Shown: in pieces, positions 43,663-53,896 of the stretch
Numbering within the stretch: position 1 is the first letter of the stretch
Layout: the number at the start of each line of letters is the position of its first letter
Assembly: GCA_946553045.1 (NCBI GenBank)
Contig: CAMNRO010000015.1
Location: 1 to 53,941 of the forward strand
Reading direction: 5' to 3'
DNA length: 53,941 nt
From: an uncultured Porphyromonadaceae bacterium
GTDB lineage: Bacteria > Bacteroidota > Bacteroidia > Bacteroidales > Muribaculaceae
The notes under the pieces: generated by a model
The model's input: the letters and a program-made list of their open reading frames with translations, nothing else
Told to the model about the DNA's origin: nothing
Database searches by the model: none
Made by a program: the position numbers and the translations under genes

Positions 43663-44009
43663 TTATAGTCCGAACTTCTGCAGAGCTTCGATTGTGTCCT
43701 TTTTGAGTATGGGAATATGCCTTACGACCAATGCCCAGAGAAATTCGGGCTGCACGCTGTCGTAGCCGTGAATGATTCTGTTTCGTGTGTTTATGATTTC
43801 GCGGGCGTTTGGCAGTGGGAAATCTTTGTCGATTTTAGGATTCTGTTTATTGCTTCTCCCATTATTTCGACTTTGCGCTCGACTGCACTGCGTCTAAGAA
43901 AATCTTTGACGAATATATCGTATCGCATGGGATAGTCGTTGAAGTAGCTTTCAAGTTCTTCTATTGCGATTTTGACGTCTGTAAGGTATATCGGGATATA
44001 TTCATCCAT
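43663..44009 (-). pseudogene. hepT: Frameshifted HepT (HEPN) toxin
   Basis: A HepT-like HEPN-fold gene. The first part reads MDEYIPIYLTD...GEAINRI in one frame; near 43831-43845 (the AAAA run on the minus strand) the reading shifts, and the conserved end NPKID...NAREIINTRNRIIHGYDS...KFGL continues in another frame to a stop at 43663. The RNase motif RX4HXY (RNRIIHGY) is thus lost from the translated product, which stops at 43791. Adding back one base gives 115 residues, close to the two intact copies at the right end (117 and 114). It overlaps its antitoxin gene by 8 nt. Confidence 0.85.
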
Positions 44010-44307
44010 AAATTGGCATTTTGTGCTTGTTTATTGCTGCGAGGAACAGCGGGTTGCGAATGCCTTGCTCTTCAATCAGGTCGATTTTACGGTTGAACAG
44101 GGCTTCGAGGGCATCGCGGAATCCGAAATAGTTGCTGACGTAATCCCACTGCTCGTGGTCTGTCGTATCGAAATTTACAAGGAAATCGACATCGCTCTGT
44201 TCTGAAAAGCGGTCTGTGAGTATAGACCCGAACACAGAAAGCGATTTCACCCTGAACTTGTGGCACAGGGCTATGATTTTGTCCATGTTCATTTCTATGA
44301 GCTTCAT
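44002..44307 (-). CDS. mntA: MntA-type nucleotidyltransferase antitoxin
   Basis: A 101-residue minimal nucleotidyltransferase of the HepT/MntA system, in which MntA neutralises HepT by transferring AMP to its tyrosine. The catalytic motif is G-S at 27-28 then D39-V-D41 (FGSILTDRFSEQSDVDF), and the third acidic residue is probably in VNFDTTDHEQ. The protein begins MKLIEMNMDKIIALC, like both other copies. The partner toxin is broken by a frameshift, so this antitoxin may now be free. The promoter leaves only 4 nt before the ATG, so the mRNA may be leaderless. Confidence 0.9.
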   Translation of the reverse strand: MKLIEMNMDKIIALCHKFRVKSLSVFGSILTDRFSEQSDVDFLVNFDTTDHEQWDYVSNYFGFRDALEALFNRKIDLIEEQGIRNPLFLAAINKHKMPIYG

Positions 44308-48412: not shown

Positions 48413-48489
48413 GGGGCACTAGCTCATCTGGCTAGAGCGCGACACTGGCAGTGTCGAGGTGAGCGGTTCGAGTCCGCTGTGCTCCACCA
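48413..48489 (+). tRNA. tRNA-Ala (GGC)
   Basis: A full cloverleaf of 77 nt including encoded CCA. The acceptor stem GGGGCAC pairs with GTGCTCC, with the G3:U70 wobble that is the identity signal of alanine tRNAs. The D-stem is GCTC/GAGC. The anticodon stem is CGACA/TGTCG with loop CTGGCAG, giving anticodon GGC (reads GCC/GCU). The T-stem is AGCGG/CCGCT with loop TTCGAGT. It is followed after 2 nt by a hairpin terminator that recurs twice downstream. Confidence 0.97.
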
Positions 48490-48491
48490 AA

Positions 48492-48539
48492 GGCGAATCG
48501 AGAATATCGGTTCGCTTTTTTTGTTATATCACTATAAAT
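48492..48539 (+). repeat. 48-bp terminator/promoter cassette, copy 1
   Basis: Begins with GGCGAATCG and ends with ACTATAAAT. GCGAATCG and CGGTTCGC form an 8-bp stem (one G-U) around AGAATAT, followed by seven Ts: an intrinsic terminator for the tRNA. The T-run ends in TTTG, the form of a -33 box. The same 48 bp recurs exactly at 52373-52420 and with three changes at 53106-53153. In this copy no TAnnTTTG box follows at the right distance. Confidence 0.92.
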
Positions 48540-48589
48540 ATTCTCTTTTAGGGGTTGAGTTTTGCAGATGTTGTGTGTCTTATTAGTGT

Positions 48590-49078
48590 ATGACGAACAG
48601 AAACGACATAGGGCGGCTTTTCAAAGCACACTATGCGCAGATGTACCGCTTGGCCGTGGCACTTCTGCACGACGATGATATTGCGCGCGACATCGTCCAT
48701 GATGTGTTTGCATCGCTTCTCGACGCACCCCTTGAGATTAGTGTCACAGCTGCTTATCTTATTAAAGCGGTCAGAAACCGCTGCCTGAACTATATCCGCG
48801 ACTGTGAGACTCACCAAAGGATTGCCAACCGTTATTTTCTCGAAAACGAGGAGTACGACCGCGAGGATTGGCCTGACGAAGAAACCATTGCCCGTATATA
48901 CAGTCTTGTCAAGTCTGAAATATCTCCGCAGGCAAGACGTGTCATCGAATTACGCTTCTCCGAGGGTTTGCCGTTTGCCCGCATAGCGGCGACAATGAGA
49001 ATAAGCGAGACTGCCGTTTACCGCCATCTGAGTCATGCACTGATTATCATTCGCAAAAAACTCAACGAAAATGGATAA
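48590..49078 (+). CDS. ECF sigma-70 factor
   Basis: A 162-residue extracytoplasmic-function sigma factor. Region 2 (about 9-75; DDDIARDIVHDVFASLLDA) binds core polymerase and the -10 box. Region 4 (about 108-158; EGLPFARIAATMRISETAVYRHL) is the -35-binding helix-turn-helix. It overlaps the DUF4974 anti-sigma gene by 8 nt, and an STN-type outer-membrane receptor follows. This is the cell-surface signalling layout of Bacteroidetes, in which ligand binding outside frees the sigma factor inside to activate, usually, the same operon. Confidence 0.93.
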   Translation: MTNRNDIGRLFKAHYAQMYRLAVALLHDDDIARDIVHDVFASLLDAPLEISVTAAYLIKAVRNRCLNYIRDCETHQRIANRYFLENEEYDREDWPDEETIARIYSLVKSEISPQARRVIELRFSEGLPFARIAATMRISETAVYRHLSHALIIIRKKLNENG

Positions 49079-49709
49079 GTACGAACTTGTGCTTGATGTC
49101 ATCGAGCATCCCGAAAAATATACTTCCGGGCGCTTGGCGGAAATAATGTCTGATTCAGAAGCCAGAGAAATCTACAATCTGCTATGCAAAACTGATTCTG
49201 CTATAGAGGCCAATAAAGAGATAGATGTTGACGCCGAGTGGGAAGATTTCTCGGAGAAGCATTCTGTTCGCAATCGCCGCACATTCTTTTGGTTCGGCAG
49301 TCGTGCCGCATCCATTGCAGCCATAGTCGGCACTTCAATAGTAGCCGTTGCTGCCGGAATAGCCGTCACCGTGAATGTAGTCGTCCGTAAACCGGAACCG
49401 GTTGCTGAAAATGTGGCTGTTGCGTCGTCCGTTGAAGCCGTTTCGACAGATACTTTGACGTCTAATAGAGATGCTGTCAAGGTTGGTCTGACGCCGATAA
49501 TGTTTGAGAATGAGCCTCTTGACAAGATAATGAAAGAGGTTGCCGATGCTTACGGTATGGAGGTTAAGTTTAACAACAAGGAAGTAGCATCGCTGCACCT
49601 TTACTATAGGTTCGACCCATCGCTATCGCTCAACGAGCTTGTGGAACAACTCAATACATTCGAGCAAATCAATATCAAGCAAAACGGCAACATTCTGACC
49701 ATTGACTGA
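49071..49709 (+). CDS. Minimal anti-sigma protein (DUF4974)
   Basis: A 212-residue single-pass anti-sigma candidate. A cytoplasmic N-terminal part (about 1-75) would hold the sigma factor, with one membrane segment (about 82-107; ASIAAIVGTSIVAVAAGIAV), then a short periplasmic part. The final 70 residues (about 140-212; FENEPLDKIMKEVADAYGMEVKFNN) form a DUF4974/STN-like domain that would touch the receptor. The central FecR domain normally found between these parts is missing. The receptor gene starts 2 nt after its stop. Confidence 0.85.
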   Translation: MDKYELVLDVIEHPEKYTSGRLAEIMSDSEAREIYNLLCKTDSAIEANKEIDVDAEWEDFSEKHSVRNRRTFFWFGSRAASIAAIVGTSIVAVAAGIAVTVNVVVRKPEPVAENVAVASSVEAVSTDTLTSNRDAVKVGLTPIMFENEPLDKIMKEVADAYGMEVKFNNKEVASLHLYYRFDPSLSLNELVEQLNTFEQINIKQNGNILTID

Positions 49710-49711
49710 CA

Positions 49712-52258
49712 ATGAGAACAATACTGGCAATAATATTGGCTCTGATATCTTATATTTCAGCCAATGCAAACAAATATACCTATTCATTTCACAACACTCC
49801 TATATCAGAAGCTATTGTAAGAATAAGTAAAGACCATCCTGACATAAATATCTCCTTCATCTACAAGGAACTCGACAACTACAAAACATCAGCGAAAATT
49901 CATGCAGATGACGTCTTCGACGCCTTGCGTCAAACAATAGGTCTCAATCCAATATCAGTCATTAAAAAAGACAATAATTACTATATCGAGGCACTGCAAC
50001 ACGGAAAATTCTGCTATACAGGCAGAGCTGTAGGTCGTGATGACGAGCCTGTTGTAGCGGCAACAGTAATGCTGCTTGCGCCGAAGGACTCCACGGTCAT
50101 AACATACGGCATGACCGATGCCACTGGACACTTTTCAATTCCATGCGACAAGAAACATGTACTTGCTAAGTTTACTTGTATAGGTTATAAAACAACCTAT
50201 ATAAATATGTCAGACTTTGCGATGGGAACTATCACAATGCAACTGTCGCCCATACATCTTTCTGCTGTTTCTGTCGAATCGGATAATACAATTTTATCAA
50301 CGGATAAAAATGTTTACATTCCGACATCGACCCAAAAGAATGCGTCGCAGAATGCCGCAGATCTTTTGCGTCGTATGGCTATTCCGCAGTTGGCAATCAA
50401 TCCTGGCGACAACTCTGTTAAAGATGTTTTCGGCAACAATGTGGCTGTTTTCATTAATTACCACGAAGCCCAGTCTGACGAACTAAAAGGTATGAAAATG
50501 AATGATGTTCGCAAAATAGAGTACATCGAATTTCCTGCCGACCCACGGTTCAAGGGCGAGCAGCGCGTTGTCAACTTCATTGTTCAGGAATATGAGTATG
50601 GTGGATATATAAAGGCTTCAGAGTCGTTCACTACTCTTAATGGCATGTTCAATAATACCGATATTTTCAGCCGTTTCACTTATAAGAAGATGACATATGA
50701 TATATACGCTGGTGCTGACAATCAGGATTTTCATCATTCCGGAGCTGATAATTCGGCGGTTTATCGTCTCGAAGATAAAGGAATGCCGTTGGAGGTTACA
50801 CGTAGAGAGGCTTTCAAGAAATCAGATACACGCACAAACGAATATCCTGTAACGCTAAGAGCAAGTTATTATTCGCCACGTTTTACAGTCCGTAATACAT
50901 TGTCACTCACGCACTATTCTTCGCCTGAGCAATTATCTTGCGGTGATTTGAATGTCAATAATCACCCCGAAAGCGATTATACATACTCGAGAAATGCCCC
51001 TAAAAGAAATAATACTGTTTACTACAATAGCAACATTTGGGGTGCTTTAGGTTCTAATGCATCATTCGATATTACGCCTACTTTTCGCCATACACATCGT
51101 AACAACATATCCTCTTACGAATCAACATTGCTCAACGAACCGATTCTTAATCACATAACTGAGAATTCATATAATTGGAGTTTACAGGCAAATGGACGCA
51201 CAGGCATCGGACAGAAGAGTCAGCTTTCGTTATTCATAGCCGGAGGTCAGAATATCAATGACTTGACTTATAGAGGCTCCAACAATATCTACGACTCTTA
51301 TTCTAATTCTTTTGCAGTCGGTGAACTTCGGTATAGATACCAGACTCGTAAAATCTCCATTTCAACTTTTCTCGGGATTGGTTATGATCATAATTCGATG
51401 AATGGAATCACTTCTGACGATGCATTCCCACGGTTTGGCGCCAATGTAAGGATTTCACTTAGCAATAATTGCCAGATTTCCGCATATCTGTCCTATCAAA
51501 CGACTACCCCGGACATCAGTATGAAGGCTAATGACATAGTTCAAAGCAATGAATATATGTACCTTACCGCGAACCCCAATTTGAGAAACTGGCGAAATCT
51601 CAACTCCAATCTGTCATATAACTGGTACTGCAACAATTCGTTCTCATTGGCAGCTTTTGCCGGATATGAACAGGACTTCAACCGTGTCGCAACTGTTTAC
51701 ATACCTTATAAAGACGGTCTCGCTTTATTACGAGATTACATGAATGACGGTTCTTACAGACATTACTATCTAGGAGTCTCGGCCAATTATAAACTTTTCA
51801 ATAACAGTCTTCAGTTATACGCCAATCTTACTCAAAATGCTTATGAGATTACGGGCAGATATAGTGATTCATATTATCCTGTCCGAATACAGTTGCAAGG
51901 GGTATATTACTGGAAATCATTCAATGTACTTGCTTCGTGGGGTAATCCTCAGCGTACATTGACTGAAAACTCTAACTACATAATTCGAGGACGTAATTTC
52001 CATATGTTTTCTATCGGTTGGGGTAATGGTACTTGGTCTGTAAACTGTGCTGCGAAGAATATCTTTAATAAAGGATGGCGTTACGAGATATGGGAAAAAC
52101 AGAGTCCGTTATATTCTGAATATAAAGCTGTTTATAGTCCTTCGTCGCATGCGAGCTTAAATCTATCTGTTACTTATACTATAGGTTACGGCAAAAAGGT
52201 ACAGCGAGGCAATGAAGTAGGTGGACAAGGAAGTGCTCCGTCTGCAATTATCCGATAG
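49712..52258 (+). CDS. STN-type outer-membrane signalling receptor
   Basis: An 848-residue outer-membrane protein. Signal peptide about 1-19; an STN/secretin-N domain (about 24-90; FHNTPISEAIVRISKDHPDI), the signalling part that meets the anti-sigma protein; a carboxypeptidase-regulatory-like sandwich (about 96-180); a plug-like region (about 215-300); then a barrel of many aromatic strands. It has no SusD partner. Its DNA is strongly AT-rich compared with the chromosome around it, a sign of transfer. Ligand unknown. The end is a glycine-rich tail. Confidence 0.88.
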   Translation: MRTILAIILALISYISANANKYTYSFHNTPISEAIVRISKDHPDINISFIYKELDNYKTSAKIHADDVFDALRQTIGLNPISVIKKDNNYYIEALQHGKFCYTGRAVGRDDEPVVAATVMLLAPKDSTVITYGMTDATGHFSIPCDKKHVLAKFTCIGYKTTYINMSDFAMGTITMQLSPIHLSAVSVESDNTILSTDKNVYIPTSTQKNASQNAADLLRRMAIPQLAINPGDNSVKDVFGNNVAVFINYHEAQSDELKGMKMNDVRKIEYIEFPADPRFKGEQRVVNFIVQEYEYGGYIKASESFTTLNGMFNNTDIFSRFTYKKMTYDIYAGADNQDFHHSGADNSAVYRLEDKGMPLEVTRREAFKKSDTRTNEYPVTLRASYYSPRFTVRNTLSLTHYSSPEQLSCGDLNVNNHPESDYTYSRNAPKRNNTVYYNSNIWGALGSNASFDITPTFRHTHRNNISSYESTLLNEPILNHITENSYNWSLQANGRTGIGQKSQLSLFIAGGQNINDLTYRGSNNIYDSYSNSFAVGELRYRYQTRKISISTFLGIGYDHNSMNGITSDDAFPRFGANVRISLSNNCQISAYLSYQTTTPDISMKANDIVQSNEYMYLTANPNLRNWRNLNSNLSYNWYCNNSFSLAAFAGYEQDFNRVATVYIPYKDGLALLRDYMNDGSYRHYYLGVSANYKLFNNSLQLYANLTQNAYEITGRYSDSYYPVRIQLQGVYYWKSFNVLASWGNPQRTLTENSNYIIRGRNFHMFSIGWGNGTWSVNCAAKNIFNKGWRYEIWEKQSPLYSEYKAVYSPSSHASLNLSVTYTIGYGKKVQRGNEVGGQGSAPSAIIR

Positions 52259-52372
52259 CTATTATGAATTAGCCTGACTTATTATGAAATGCCACTGAGG
52301 GAGGCTCTCGCTTCTCTATGTGGCGTTGCTCGTGTGGCTTTGATTGTTCAGAATGGTCTTTGCGTAGCCCAC
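52259..52372. other. Gap between receptor and cassette copy 2
   Basis: A 50-codon open frame (52289-52441) crosses the gap and the cassette, but nothing similar exists at the other copies, so I treat it as chance. I see no gene or clear promoter in the first 110 nt. Confidence 0.5.
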
Positions 52373-52420
52373 GGCGAATCGAGAATATCGGTTCGCTTTT
52401 TTTGTTATATCACTATAAAT
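52373..52420 (+). repeat. 48-bp terminator/promoter cassette, copy 2
   Basis: Identical over all 48 bases to the copy behind tRNA-Ala. The terminator would stop transcription from the receptor gene, while the TTTG at the end of its T-run (52401-52404) is the -33 box for mntA just downstream. Confidence 0.95.
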
Positions 52421-52431
52421 GGCTATATTTG
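52401..52431 (+). promoter_or_regulatory. Promoter of mntA copy A
   Basis: TTTG at 52401-52404, exactly 19 nt, TATATTTG at 52424-52431, then 6 nt to the ATG at 52438. The RNA start is predicted at the ATG, so the mRNA is probably leaderless. Confidence 0.8.
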
Positions 52432-52437
52432 CGGTGT

Positions 52438-52737
52438 ATGAAGCTGATAGAAATGAACATGGATAAGATAGTGGCCTTGTGCAAGAAGTACAAGGTAGCC
52501 AAGCTATGGGTCTTCGGCTCCATTCTCACCCCGCGCTTCAACGATGACAGCGACGTCGATTTCTCGGTGATTTTTCACTATGACCAGATTCAGGATTTAT
52601 TTGTCACATTCTTTGATTTCATTGATGAACTTCAGGACTTGCTTGGCCGAAAGGTAGATATGGTTGACGAGACGGCTGTCAGGAATTCATTTTTTCGCAA
52701 AGAACTCGATAAAACCAAATACTTGATTTATGGATGA
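52438..52737 (+). CDS. mntA: MntA-type nucleotidyltransferase antitoxin, copy A
   Basis: A 99-residue minimal nucleotidyltransferase, expected to AMPylate and silence HepT. The catalytic GSx10DxD motif spans G27-S28 to D39-V-D41. Residues 1-42 are identical to copy B, with only silent base changes; from residue 43 (SVIFHYDQIQ) the sequence is unrelated in DNA and only similar in pattern (LLGRKVDMVDETAVRNSFF). The usual acidic third residue after D-x-D is replaced by a V-I-F-H stretch, so activity may be reduced. Its stop overlaps hepT by 8 nt. Confidence 0.92.
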   Translation: MKLIEMNMDKIVALCKKYKVAKLWVFGSILTPRFNDDSDVDFSVIFHYDQIQDLFVTFFDFIDELQDLLGRKVDMVDETAVRNSFFRKELDKTKYLIYG

Positions 52738-53083
52738 GCAAATTGTCAAGTCACTTCTTGATATCCTCAAGTCTATCGAGAATATAGAGTTGTTTTGCTC
52801 CTCCCGCCCAAAGGAATTCAAGACATTCTGTGAGGACCTTTGTTTCCGTAGTGCCGTTCAATGGGAAATCGCTATCATAGGTGAGGCGATGAACAGAATT
52901 CTGAAGGTATGTCCTGATATAAGCATTACATCTGCGCGTAGGATTGTAAATACCCGTAATTACCTTATACACGGCTATGACAGCTTAAGGGAAGATTTAA
53001 TATGGGCTATAGTGGTAAACCATTTGCCAATATTAAAGGCCGAAGTCACAAAATTGCTCGAATCCGCTGATTCGGTCCGATGA
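52730..53083 (+). CDS. hepT: HepT HEPN-domain RNase toxin, copy A
   Basis: A 117-residue all-helical HEPN protein. The RNase active site RX4HXY is R76-x4-H81-G-Y83 in NTRNYLIHGYDS; Y83 is the residue AMPylated by MntA in characterised systems. The conserved GEAMNRIL (51-58) and the C-terminal LPILKAEVTKLL helix are present. The ATG lies 8 nt inside the end of mntA, so the pair is translated together. Only moderately similar to copy B, unlike the near-identical start of the two antitoxins. Confidence 0.93.
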   Translation: MDEQIVKSLLDILKSIENIELFCSSRPKEFKTFCEDLCFRSAVQWEIAIIGEAMNRILKVCPDISITSARRIVNTRNYLIHGYDSLREDLIWAIVVNHLPILKAEVTKLLESADSVR

Positions 53084-53105
53084 TTTGTCATGAAGCCCCA
53101 CCCAC

Positions 53106-53153
53106 GGCGAATCGGGAATATCGGTTCGCTTTTTTTGTTATATTATTATAAAT
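53106..53153 (+). repeat. 48-bp terminator/promoter cassette, copy 3
   Basis: Three differences from the other two copies (A to G in the loop, and two changes in TCAC to TTAT). The bases just before it (53095-53105) match the tRNA-Ala 3-prime end (GCTCCACCAAA) at 8 of 11 positions, so this copy may preserve part of the tRNA end. Confidence 0.92.
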
Positions 53154-53164
53154 GACTATATTTG
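53134..53164 (+). promoter_or_regulatory. Promoter of mntA copy B
   Basis: TTTG at 53134-53137, exactly 19 nt, TATATTTG at 53157-53164, then 6 nt to the ATG at 53171. Same leaderless layout as copy A. Confidence 0.8.
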
Positions 53165-53170
53165 CGGTGT

Positions 53171-53482
53171 ATGAAGCTGATAGAAATGAACATGGACAAG
53201 ATAGTGGCCTTGTGCAAGAAGTACAAGGTAGCCAAGCTATGGGTCTTCGGCTCCATTCTCACCCCGCGCTTCAACGACGACAGCGATGTCGACTTTCTTG
53301 TCGATTTCGATGAAAAACACATCGATTTGCTTGATTATGCCGATAATTTTTTCAACTTTATCCATGAAATTGAAGCAGTTGTGGGTCGTAAAGTAGATAT
53401 GGTGGTGAACAAGTCGATTAAAAACCGCTTCTTTCGCGCCGAAGTTGATGAAACTCGCAAGTTATTATGGAGCGTTCAATAA
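53171..53482 (+). CDS. mntA: MntA-type nucleotidyltransferase antitoxin, copy B
   Basis: A 103-residue minimal nucleotidyltransferase. The catalytic motif G27-S28...D39-V-D41 is followed by a well-formed acidic stretch (LVDFDEKH), so catalysis looks intact, unlike copy A. The first 42 residues are identical to copy A. The C-terminal half (LDYADNFFNFIHEIEAVVGRKVDMVVNKS) differs. The frame could open at TTG 53162, but that lies inside the -7 box; the ATG at 53171 is right. It overlaps hepT copy B by 16 nt. Confidence 0.93.
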   Translation: MKLIEMNMDKIVALCKKYKVAKLWVFGSILTPRFNDDSDVDFLVDFDEKHIDLLDYADNFFNFIHEIEAVVGRKVDMVVNKSIKNRFFRAEVDETRKLLWSVQ

Positions 53483-53811
53483 ACAAGACACTCGAGGATA
53501 TCCTAAATGCTATTTTAGAGATAAATTCTTTTTTTGGAACTCGCCCGATGCGGTATGATATATATCTTTCCGATGTATGTCTGCGTCGAGCTGTTGAACG
53601 CAATATAACTATAATAGGCGAGGCTATGAACCGGCTATTGCGTCTCGCGCCAAGTATTGAAATTACAGCGGCGCGAAGGATTGTGGATACTCGCAATTAT
53701 GTGATTCATGGCTACGACAGCGTTACCGATGATGTCATGTGGGGCATAGTCGTCCGACACTTGCCATTGCTCAAGGCTGAGGTGGAAAAGTTGTTGGAGA
53801 GCCTTGATTAA
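53467..53811 (+). CDS. hepT: HepT HEPN-domain RNase toxin, copy B
   Basis: A 114-residue HEPN protein with the active-site motif RX4HXY at R76-x4-H81-G-Y83 (RNYVIHGY). GEAMNRLL (51-58) and the terminal LPLLKAEVEKLLESLD helix are conserved with the other copies. It is intact and coupled to mntA copy B. A hairpin terminator follows 50 nt after the stop. Confidence 0.93.
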   Translation: MERSINKTLEDILNAILEINSFFGTRPMRYDIYLSDVCLRRAVERNITIIGEAMNRLLRLAPSIEITAARRIVDTRNYVIHGYDSVTDDVMWGIVVRHLPLLKAEVEKLLESLD

Positions 53812-53860
53812 TTTAAAATGACGGAAGTCGTTGCGATATAGATTGTCAGCATACACGCAA

Positions 53861-53896
53861 AAAAGGCGAGCCGAATTTCGGGTTCGCCTTTTTTGT
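53861..53896 (+). terminator. Terminator after hepT copy B
   Basis: AAAAGGCGA-G-CCGAA pairs with TTCGG-G-TTCGCCTTTT around a short loop, followed by a T-run. The core (GGCGA...GGTTCGCCTTTTTTG) resembles a diverged version of the 48-bp cassette terminator. The remaining 45 bases to the window end hold nothing I can name. Confidence 0.8.

Follow-up and report, generated by a model that had tools for sequence, protein, structure and literature searches.

In tandem arrays of MntA/HepT toxin-antitoxin genes in the Muribaculaceae, neighbouring mntA genes resemble each other in their first halves far more closely than the age of the antitoxin types would allow; this holds in six of the seven arrays compared and is not seen among dispersed copies. 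We attribute the pattern, with a probability of about 0.75, to concerted evolution in which tandem neighbours undergo gene conversion; homology, and perhaps selection for matched pairs, would set its limits. The reference case lies in the window, i.e., the whole 53,941-nt stretch of DNA analysed, where two modules stand head to tail at the contig end with all four genes on the + strand (Table 1).

Table 1. Features of the tandem array and the upstream tRNA site (window coordinates)
Feature	Position	Strand	Details	Basis
tRNA-Ala(GGC)	48413..48489	+		
48-nt element, third copy	48492..48539	+	directly behind tRNA-Ala(GGC)	repeat, folding
Shared block, copy A	52368..52562	+	terminator, promoter, mntA codons 1-41 and most of 42	direct repeat
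48-nt element, copy A	52373..52420	+	terminator hairpin, T run, AT-rich spacer	repeat, folding
Promoter-like TTTG-N19-TATATTTG	52401..52431	+	before mntA-A	sequence; presumed consensus
mntA-A	52438-52737	+	52438..52563 = codons 1-42, catalytic half with GSx10DxD	
mntA-A second half (type A) and stop	52564..52737	+		
hepT-A	52730..53083	+	RX4HXY (R76, H81, Y83)	
Shared block, copy B	53101..53295	+		direct repeat
48-nt element, copy B	53106..53153	+		repeat, folding
Promoter-like TTTG-N19-TATATTTG	53134..53164	+	before mntA-B	sequence; presumed consensus
mntA-B	53171-53482	+	53171..53296 = codons 1-42, catalytic half	
mntA-B second half (type B) and stop	53297..53482	+		
hepT-B	53467..53811	+	RX4HXY, pattern as in HepT-A	
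Terminator-like hairpin	53858..53896	+	3' of hepT-B	folding

Both window MntA proteins reach the Pfam cut-offs for Polbeta and NTP_transf_2 and carry the GSx10DxD motif, and the two HepT proteins score 51.4 and 57 bits against PF01934 (HepT-like). The NCBIfam equivalog cut-offs of 60 bits are missed by all four, the MntAs scoring 44.5 and 41.3 bits against NF047752 (MntA_antitoxin) and the HepTs 23.4 and 27.9 bits against NF047751 (HepT_toxin). The start codons are likely those at 52438 (A) and 53171 (B), with a protein beginning MKLIEMN-, seven codons upstream of the ATG used earlier. An AlphaFold2 model of MntA-A built from 12 sequences (mean pLDDT 90.3) has the MNT fold, and its best PDB matches (1wot, 7bxo, 1no5 and 8xeo) are MNT proteins. 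According to the available part of PMC7641770, MntA catalysis uses GSx10DxD and a third aspartate further on (D71); in our sequences D74, behind beta-2, is invariant across 12 MntA sequences and, by its position, would be the counterpart. Both MntAs also match PDC-S09, a PADLOC candidate defence family (E 8.7e-26 and 1.5e-28), and neither window HepT does; this likeness is an MntA match to what is a database label only. A third module, of another type, lies 8 kb from the array on the - strand (43672-44307); its mntA is open, its hepT is broken, and it shows no homogenisation with the array modules.

The two modules share a direct repeat of 195 nt at a spacing of 733 nt, with 187 of 195 positions identical and 8 mismatches (95.9%). 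Five differences fall within mntA codons 1-42 (52464, 52545, 52554, 52560 and 52563), and all are silent, which bears out the earlier note's description of a near-identical 5' block with silent coding differences. Compared base by base at the 733-nt offset in 20-nt bins, identity runs at 17-20 of 20 over 52370-52549 and then falls to 13, 10 and 4. The sharp step that the same note had set as a test is thus present; it had been placed directly after the second catalytic aspartate, and it lies one codon further on. Beyond it, the mntA second halves share 53% of their DNA and 43% of their protein sequence (gaps allowed), and the HepT proteins are 57% identical. Between mntA-A and mntA-B, pN is 0 and pS 0.24 in the first half, against 0.36 and 0.94 in the second. 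Because pS rises from 0.24 to 0.94 inside one gene, the step marks a recombination edge rather than a gradient of constraint; protein constraint alone cannot produce such a jump in silent divergence.

To place the window in context, 54 mntA genes of its clade (W type) from 38 genomes were compared, among them seven tandem arrays with nine tandem pairs. They come from 96 mntA genes (at least 85 aa and at least 100 bits) in the fetched loci, 42 of other types and shorter pieces being left out. Loci were fetched for part of the 125 profile-positive genomes (genus hits, multi-copy and high-scoring genomes), with one genome per species and contigs that are mostly metagenome assemblies; genomes and loci are given below by our G and L numbers, the window being contig C15 of G000.

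Third-position identity over the first 35 aligned codons separates tandem neighbours from all other pairs. Tandem first halves average 79% (n=9: 51, 71, 75, 80, 83, 86, 89, 89, 89), against 47% for dispersed copies of the same genome (n=15, p=6e-5), 53% for other genomes of the genus (n=241, p=4e-6) and 48% for other genomes of the family (n=1166). Of 1407 cross-genome pairs, a single one is as high as the tandem median, and eight of the nine tandem pairs are closer than the cross-genome averages. Second halves are flat by the same measure (37% in tandem, 34-39% otherwise). A recently homogenised first half was therefore found in six of the seven Muribaculaceae arrays (third positions 71-89%), the exception being the G136 pair, 1.3 kb apart (51%). 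The tandem pairs of G001 and G089, which join unlike clades, are not homogenised. The search for other genomes carrying the same first half with other second halves, which the earlier note had called for, did find such genomes.

Trees of the two halves tell different histories. In the first-half tree six of seven arrays are monophyletic, an array clustering matched in 0 of 200 shuffles; support is good for G000, G003, G009 and G265, moderate for G006 (93/79) and low for G012 (64/74), and G136 is not monophyletic. Second halves of types A, B, D and F form one clade per type in their own tree. On the first-half tree the types require 27 changes, against a shuffled mean of 29.5 (25 of 200 shuffles were as low); on the second-half tree they require 4, the minimum possible. 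AU tests of the first halves rejected a type B clade (p 1.5e-4), a type A clade (0.0014) and a genus-only type B clade (0.027), and those of the second halves rejected monophyly for every one of the six homogenised arrays (1.5e-10 to 0.008). The type-B second halves of G000, G003 and G009 cluster together (93/84) while their first halves cluster by array; the three lineages therefore acquired their sharing independently. Recombination, by gene conversion or in modular form as first proposed, is required by the AU tests, by the tandem and dispersed identities and by the pS contrast.

Exchange between species is a separate matter. Across genomes, first-half identity is 53.8% for pairs with the same second-half type (n=63) and 52.1% for pairs of different type (n=178; p 0.25). 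The flanking genes of seven loci are near saturation at third positions (48% for the symporter, 45% for DUF1343), and neither mntA half tracks flanking-gene distance significantly in these seven loci. Since silent sites are saturated between species, the lack of a type signal across species is weak evidence for exchange between them; the firm result is recent sharing within arrays. Among 393 genomes of the order, some of which belong to this family, the matches listed outside the family include no pair less than 1.6 kb apart (nearest G647, 3.2 kb).

The edges of the shared tracts vary. The 3' edge of identity lies near codon 42 in the homogenised arrays and coincides with the first amino-acid difference; in the A/C pairs of G003 and G012 identity continues through common Ser-Val codons and stops where the neighbours differ. 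The 5' edge takes in terminator and promoter in the window and the promoter in G009, and in the other four homogenised arrays lies at the start codon or within about 25 nt of it. Such variable edges argue against a fixed junction and fit conversion limited by homology or selection. The proposal of a fixed expression-plus-catalytic cassette finds no support in that form: the terminator-promoter stretch is wholly common only in the window and partly so in G009. In G006 (L040:7600-7700) the end of hepT-F appears, by eye, to run directly into the next mntA start, and the two may form one operon.

What had been called a 48-bp cassette is the terminator of tRNA-Ala(GGC) and is no general part of the shared unit. 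All three window copies form a hairpin on folding, with a T run behind it, and a 48-nt repeat has a chance expectation of 0.00 (100 shuffles); before later units of other arrays the element is absent or degenerate. TTTG-N19-TATATTTG matches what we take to be the Bacteroidetes promoter pattern. Before both mntA genes its TTTG is the end of the terminator T run, with the ATG 6 nt past TATATTTG, and because the T run supplies the TTTG, tRNA terminator and antitoxin promoter appear to be fused in the window. Among the 54 related mntA units, TTG/TTTG-N18-21-TANNTTTG stands upstream of 32, and a tRNA-Ala lies at most 400 nt upstream of 16. In the window the array is parted from the tRNA gene by a 3.8-kb segment (48540-52372) flanked by two identical 48-nt terminator copies; the segment encodes an 848-aa protein, an ECF sigma factor and a FecR-like protein. 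In the 91 loci searched for flanking genes, tblastn gave no match at 1e-8 for the sigma factor or the FecR protein, and two for the 848-aa protein (33% and 31%, in L080 and L051).

The MntA profile matches 125 of 297 family genomes, in 22 of 30 genera. As DNA, the shared block has a match in 23 of 49 genomes of the genus, the window's own included, often partial and in a few cases covering the terminator only. Of the 91 loci, 11 in the genus have the DUF1343 flank of the window, 10 of them also with the symporter and the WYL-type regulator, and all 11 carry tRNA-Ala(GGC). What follows the tRNA gene varies: modules of type A, B, C or D, a DUF4160/DUF2442 pair (G014) or, in G032, little beyond terminator, promoter and a short mntA-like start (by eye); three contigs end directly behind it. 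G006 has only the WYL-type gene upstream, with type F and then type A. The DUF4160/DUF2442 pair stands directly behind tRNA-Ala(GGC) at L063:1400-2150 (G014), L150 (G019), L156 (G043) and L143 (G002), the Pfam assignment having been made for G019 and G014, and in G014 it sits between two copies of the tRNA end and terminator (about 59 nt, by eye). Upstream of position 8901 of L038 (G003), an apparent DUF2442 gene end precedes mntA-B (by eye), which suggests successive occupants of the site. Other tRNA genes are also followed by mntA: tRNA-Pro(CGG) by a gene of another clade (L062 in G043, L068 in G011) and tRNA-Met(CAT) by type A (L079 in G136, L109 in G305), and placement behind tRNA genes may be more general. 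Contig ends inside the shared block behind tRNA-Ala (G036:C41, L058; G037:C36, L065) hint at further arrays hidden by assembly.

The division of the gene coincides with a predicted division of labour. In the model the shared half comprises the N-terminal helices, beta-1 (20-26), the loop with its short helix and the beginning of beta-2 (40-46); alpha-2 (54-69), beta-3 (73-77), alpha-3 (84-93) and the last strand make up the variable half. The shared part thus stops inside beta-2 of the model, with the helix and loop that contact the HEPN partner (after the available part of PMC11586414) falling in the variable half. Correlations with HepT identity were computed over 588 cross-genome pairs of 35 units with a hepT, one of which (G012_24094) is a piece of a broken gene. 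By local stretches of mntA, the correlation is 0.01-0.12 from aligned codons 1-25, 0.23 from codon 28, 0.45-0.52 from codons 31-34 and 0.08-0.60 thereafter. For whole halves it is 0.16 for the first (Mantel p 0.026) and 0.61 for the second (p 0.002), a contrast partly due to the low protein variation of the first half. The expectation that the variable half is the partner-recognition half agrees with these correlations, with the model and with the contacts in the available part of PMC11586414.

We propose the following mechanism. The antitoxins belong to old, distinct types (A, B, C, D and F), set out head to tail as two type VII modules per array and three in G003. Neighbours would recombine homologously, by ectopic gene conversion or unequal crossing-over, and the copied tract would end with GSx10DxD; it would begin at the start codon or, if promoter and terminator are present in the two copies, with those elements. 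Tracts would stop since the second halves are too unlike to pair, and perhaps also because conversion of a second half would deprive a HepT of its own antitoxin. By analogy with characterized systems, each MntA would move AMP to the RX4HXY tyrosine of its own HepT, the shared half providing the chemistry and the variable half (alpha-2, the alpha-2/beta-3 loop and alpha-3) the choice of partner. A crossover in the shared half does not part a second half from its own hepT, and all products would thus hold matched pairs.

The picture expected from conversion would also result if new second halves were captured and joined to a copied first half. An incoming second half with its hepT would recombine in the first half, for example as a circle by a single crossover, and stack beside the resident with a first-half copy and no later conversion. 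Species do differ in type at one site behind DUF1343, the symporter and tRNA-Ala, and type A, present in six of seven arrays, stands furthest from the array start in G003, G006, G009 and G012; it comes first, however, in G000 and G265. Tandem first halves differ at 11-29% of third positions, a distance between that of identical copies and that of a foreign donor, and searches of IMG/VR and phage records found no carrier. On balance, we consider capture without conversion unlikely. Carriage by phage was pursued and set aside, none being confirmed in IMG/VR and MntA-B having no match in phage records, and carriage by plasmids likewise, with just two distant MntA-B matches (50% and 41%).

Much less probable is a site-specific cassette system with the 48-nt tRNA end and terminator element as attachment site. 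Copies do lie behind tRNA-Ala, before mntA-A and before mntA-B, and two flank the DUF4160/DUF2442 pair of G014, but later junctions of other arrays lack the element or have it degenerate, the tract edge is not fixed, and no recombinase stood out on casual inspection. The same observations dispose of a universal fixed cassette, or of the element as an attachment site, as the general driver. An integron-like array, similarly, has a recombination site at every junction, which the 48-nt element does not provide here. A short-read assembly artefact over the repeat is still harder to credit: the contigs are metagenome-assembled and the window contig ends 130 nt behind hepT-B, but the two copies hold 8 fixed differences and the pattern recurs in six genomes. 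Stronger purifying selection on the first half without recombination can practically be dismissed, since, although this half is the most conserved part of the MntA protein, silent sites (pS 0.24 vs 0.94) and dispersed copies, at only 47% of third positions, contradict it, as the latter do the idea that a DNA or RNA signal keeps the first half fixed.

Toxin integrity qualifies the selective part of the gene-conversion reading. HepT is intact beside 6 of 19 type-A mntA genes (perhaps 5, the G037 hepT being counted although its end looks out of frame), against 28 of 35 others (Fisher p 8.8e-4). Type A occurs in six of seven arrays, with an intact HepT in only one of them, the window, and two intact pairs stand side by side in only two of seven, G000 (A, B) and G003 (B, C). 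Two active, insulated pairs are thus not the usual state, and it is doubtful that selection favours them. All 13 type-A antitoxins without an intact HepT keep the 92 aligned residues and GSx10DxD; their second halves have a pN/pS of 0.21, for which selection before toxin loss may account. A more speculative extension, which we think improbable though worth stating, would make the tRNA-Ala(GGC) site an antitoxin specificity-exchange locus. The tRNA terminator would act also as a promoter element, and the recombining catalytic half would serve as a platform on which units of second half plus hepT are loaded, stacked and lost by homologous recombination; the cell would swap matched pairs and keep orphan type-A antitoxins against incoming HepT-A.

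Concerted evolution makes tandem paralogues of the same array more alike than their counterparts in other genomes; unlike the general case, homogenisation here is confined to the antitoxin's catalytic half, with a sharp edge at the partner-recognition half. Target-domain exchange in HsdS likewise joins a constant half to a changing specificity half. Polymorphic toxins do so by C-terminal exchange, as the available part of PMC3482391 describes. Unlike in both, the split here falls inside the fold of one small domain, and the changing part is the antitoxin half linked to its toxin gene. The Shewanella pair SO_3165/SO_3166, in the available part of PMC7641770, has the same fold and a GSx10DxD antitoxin upstream of an RX4HXY HEPN toxin; the present systems differ in their tandem arrays, recombining first halves, type-specific second halves, MntAs of 99-103 aa and scores below the NCBIfam equivalog cut-offs. 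HEPN-MNT systems with a short MNT (8xeo, 8xeh) resemble them in an MNT of about 100 residues, and the available part of their description (PMC11586414) does not mention half-gene homogenisation. MNT-HEPN modules have been recently gained or lost between close genomes, according to the available part of PMC2701414. Among the papers listed in literature searches, no title or abstract opening describes half-gene homogenisation in MntA arrays or such a tRNA-Ala site, an earlier description elsewhere being possible.

The finding touches the open question of how toxin-antitoxin pairs that are related to each other remain matched under recombination of their genes. As the two halves have separate histories, a tree of whole MntA proteins mixes both. 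Within an enzyme of about 100 residues, natural recombination marks the part that neighbours share and the part kept apart, and MntA partner choice is predicted to lie behind beta-2. The arrays thereby offer a natural set of second halves, with their own HepTs, for testing partner choice.
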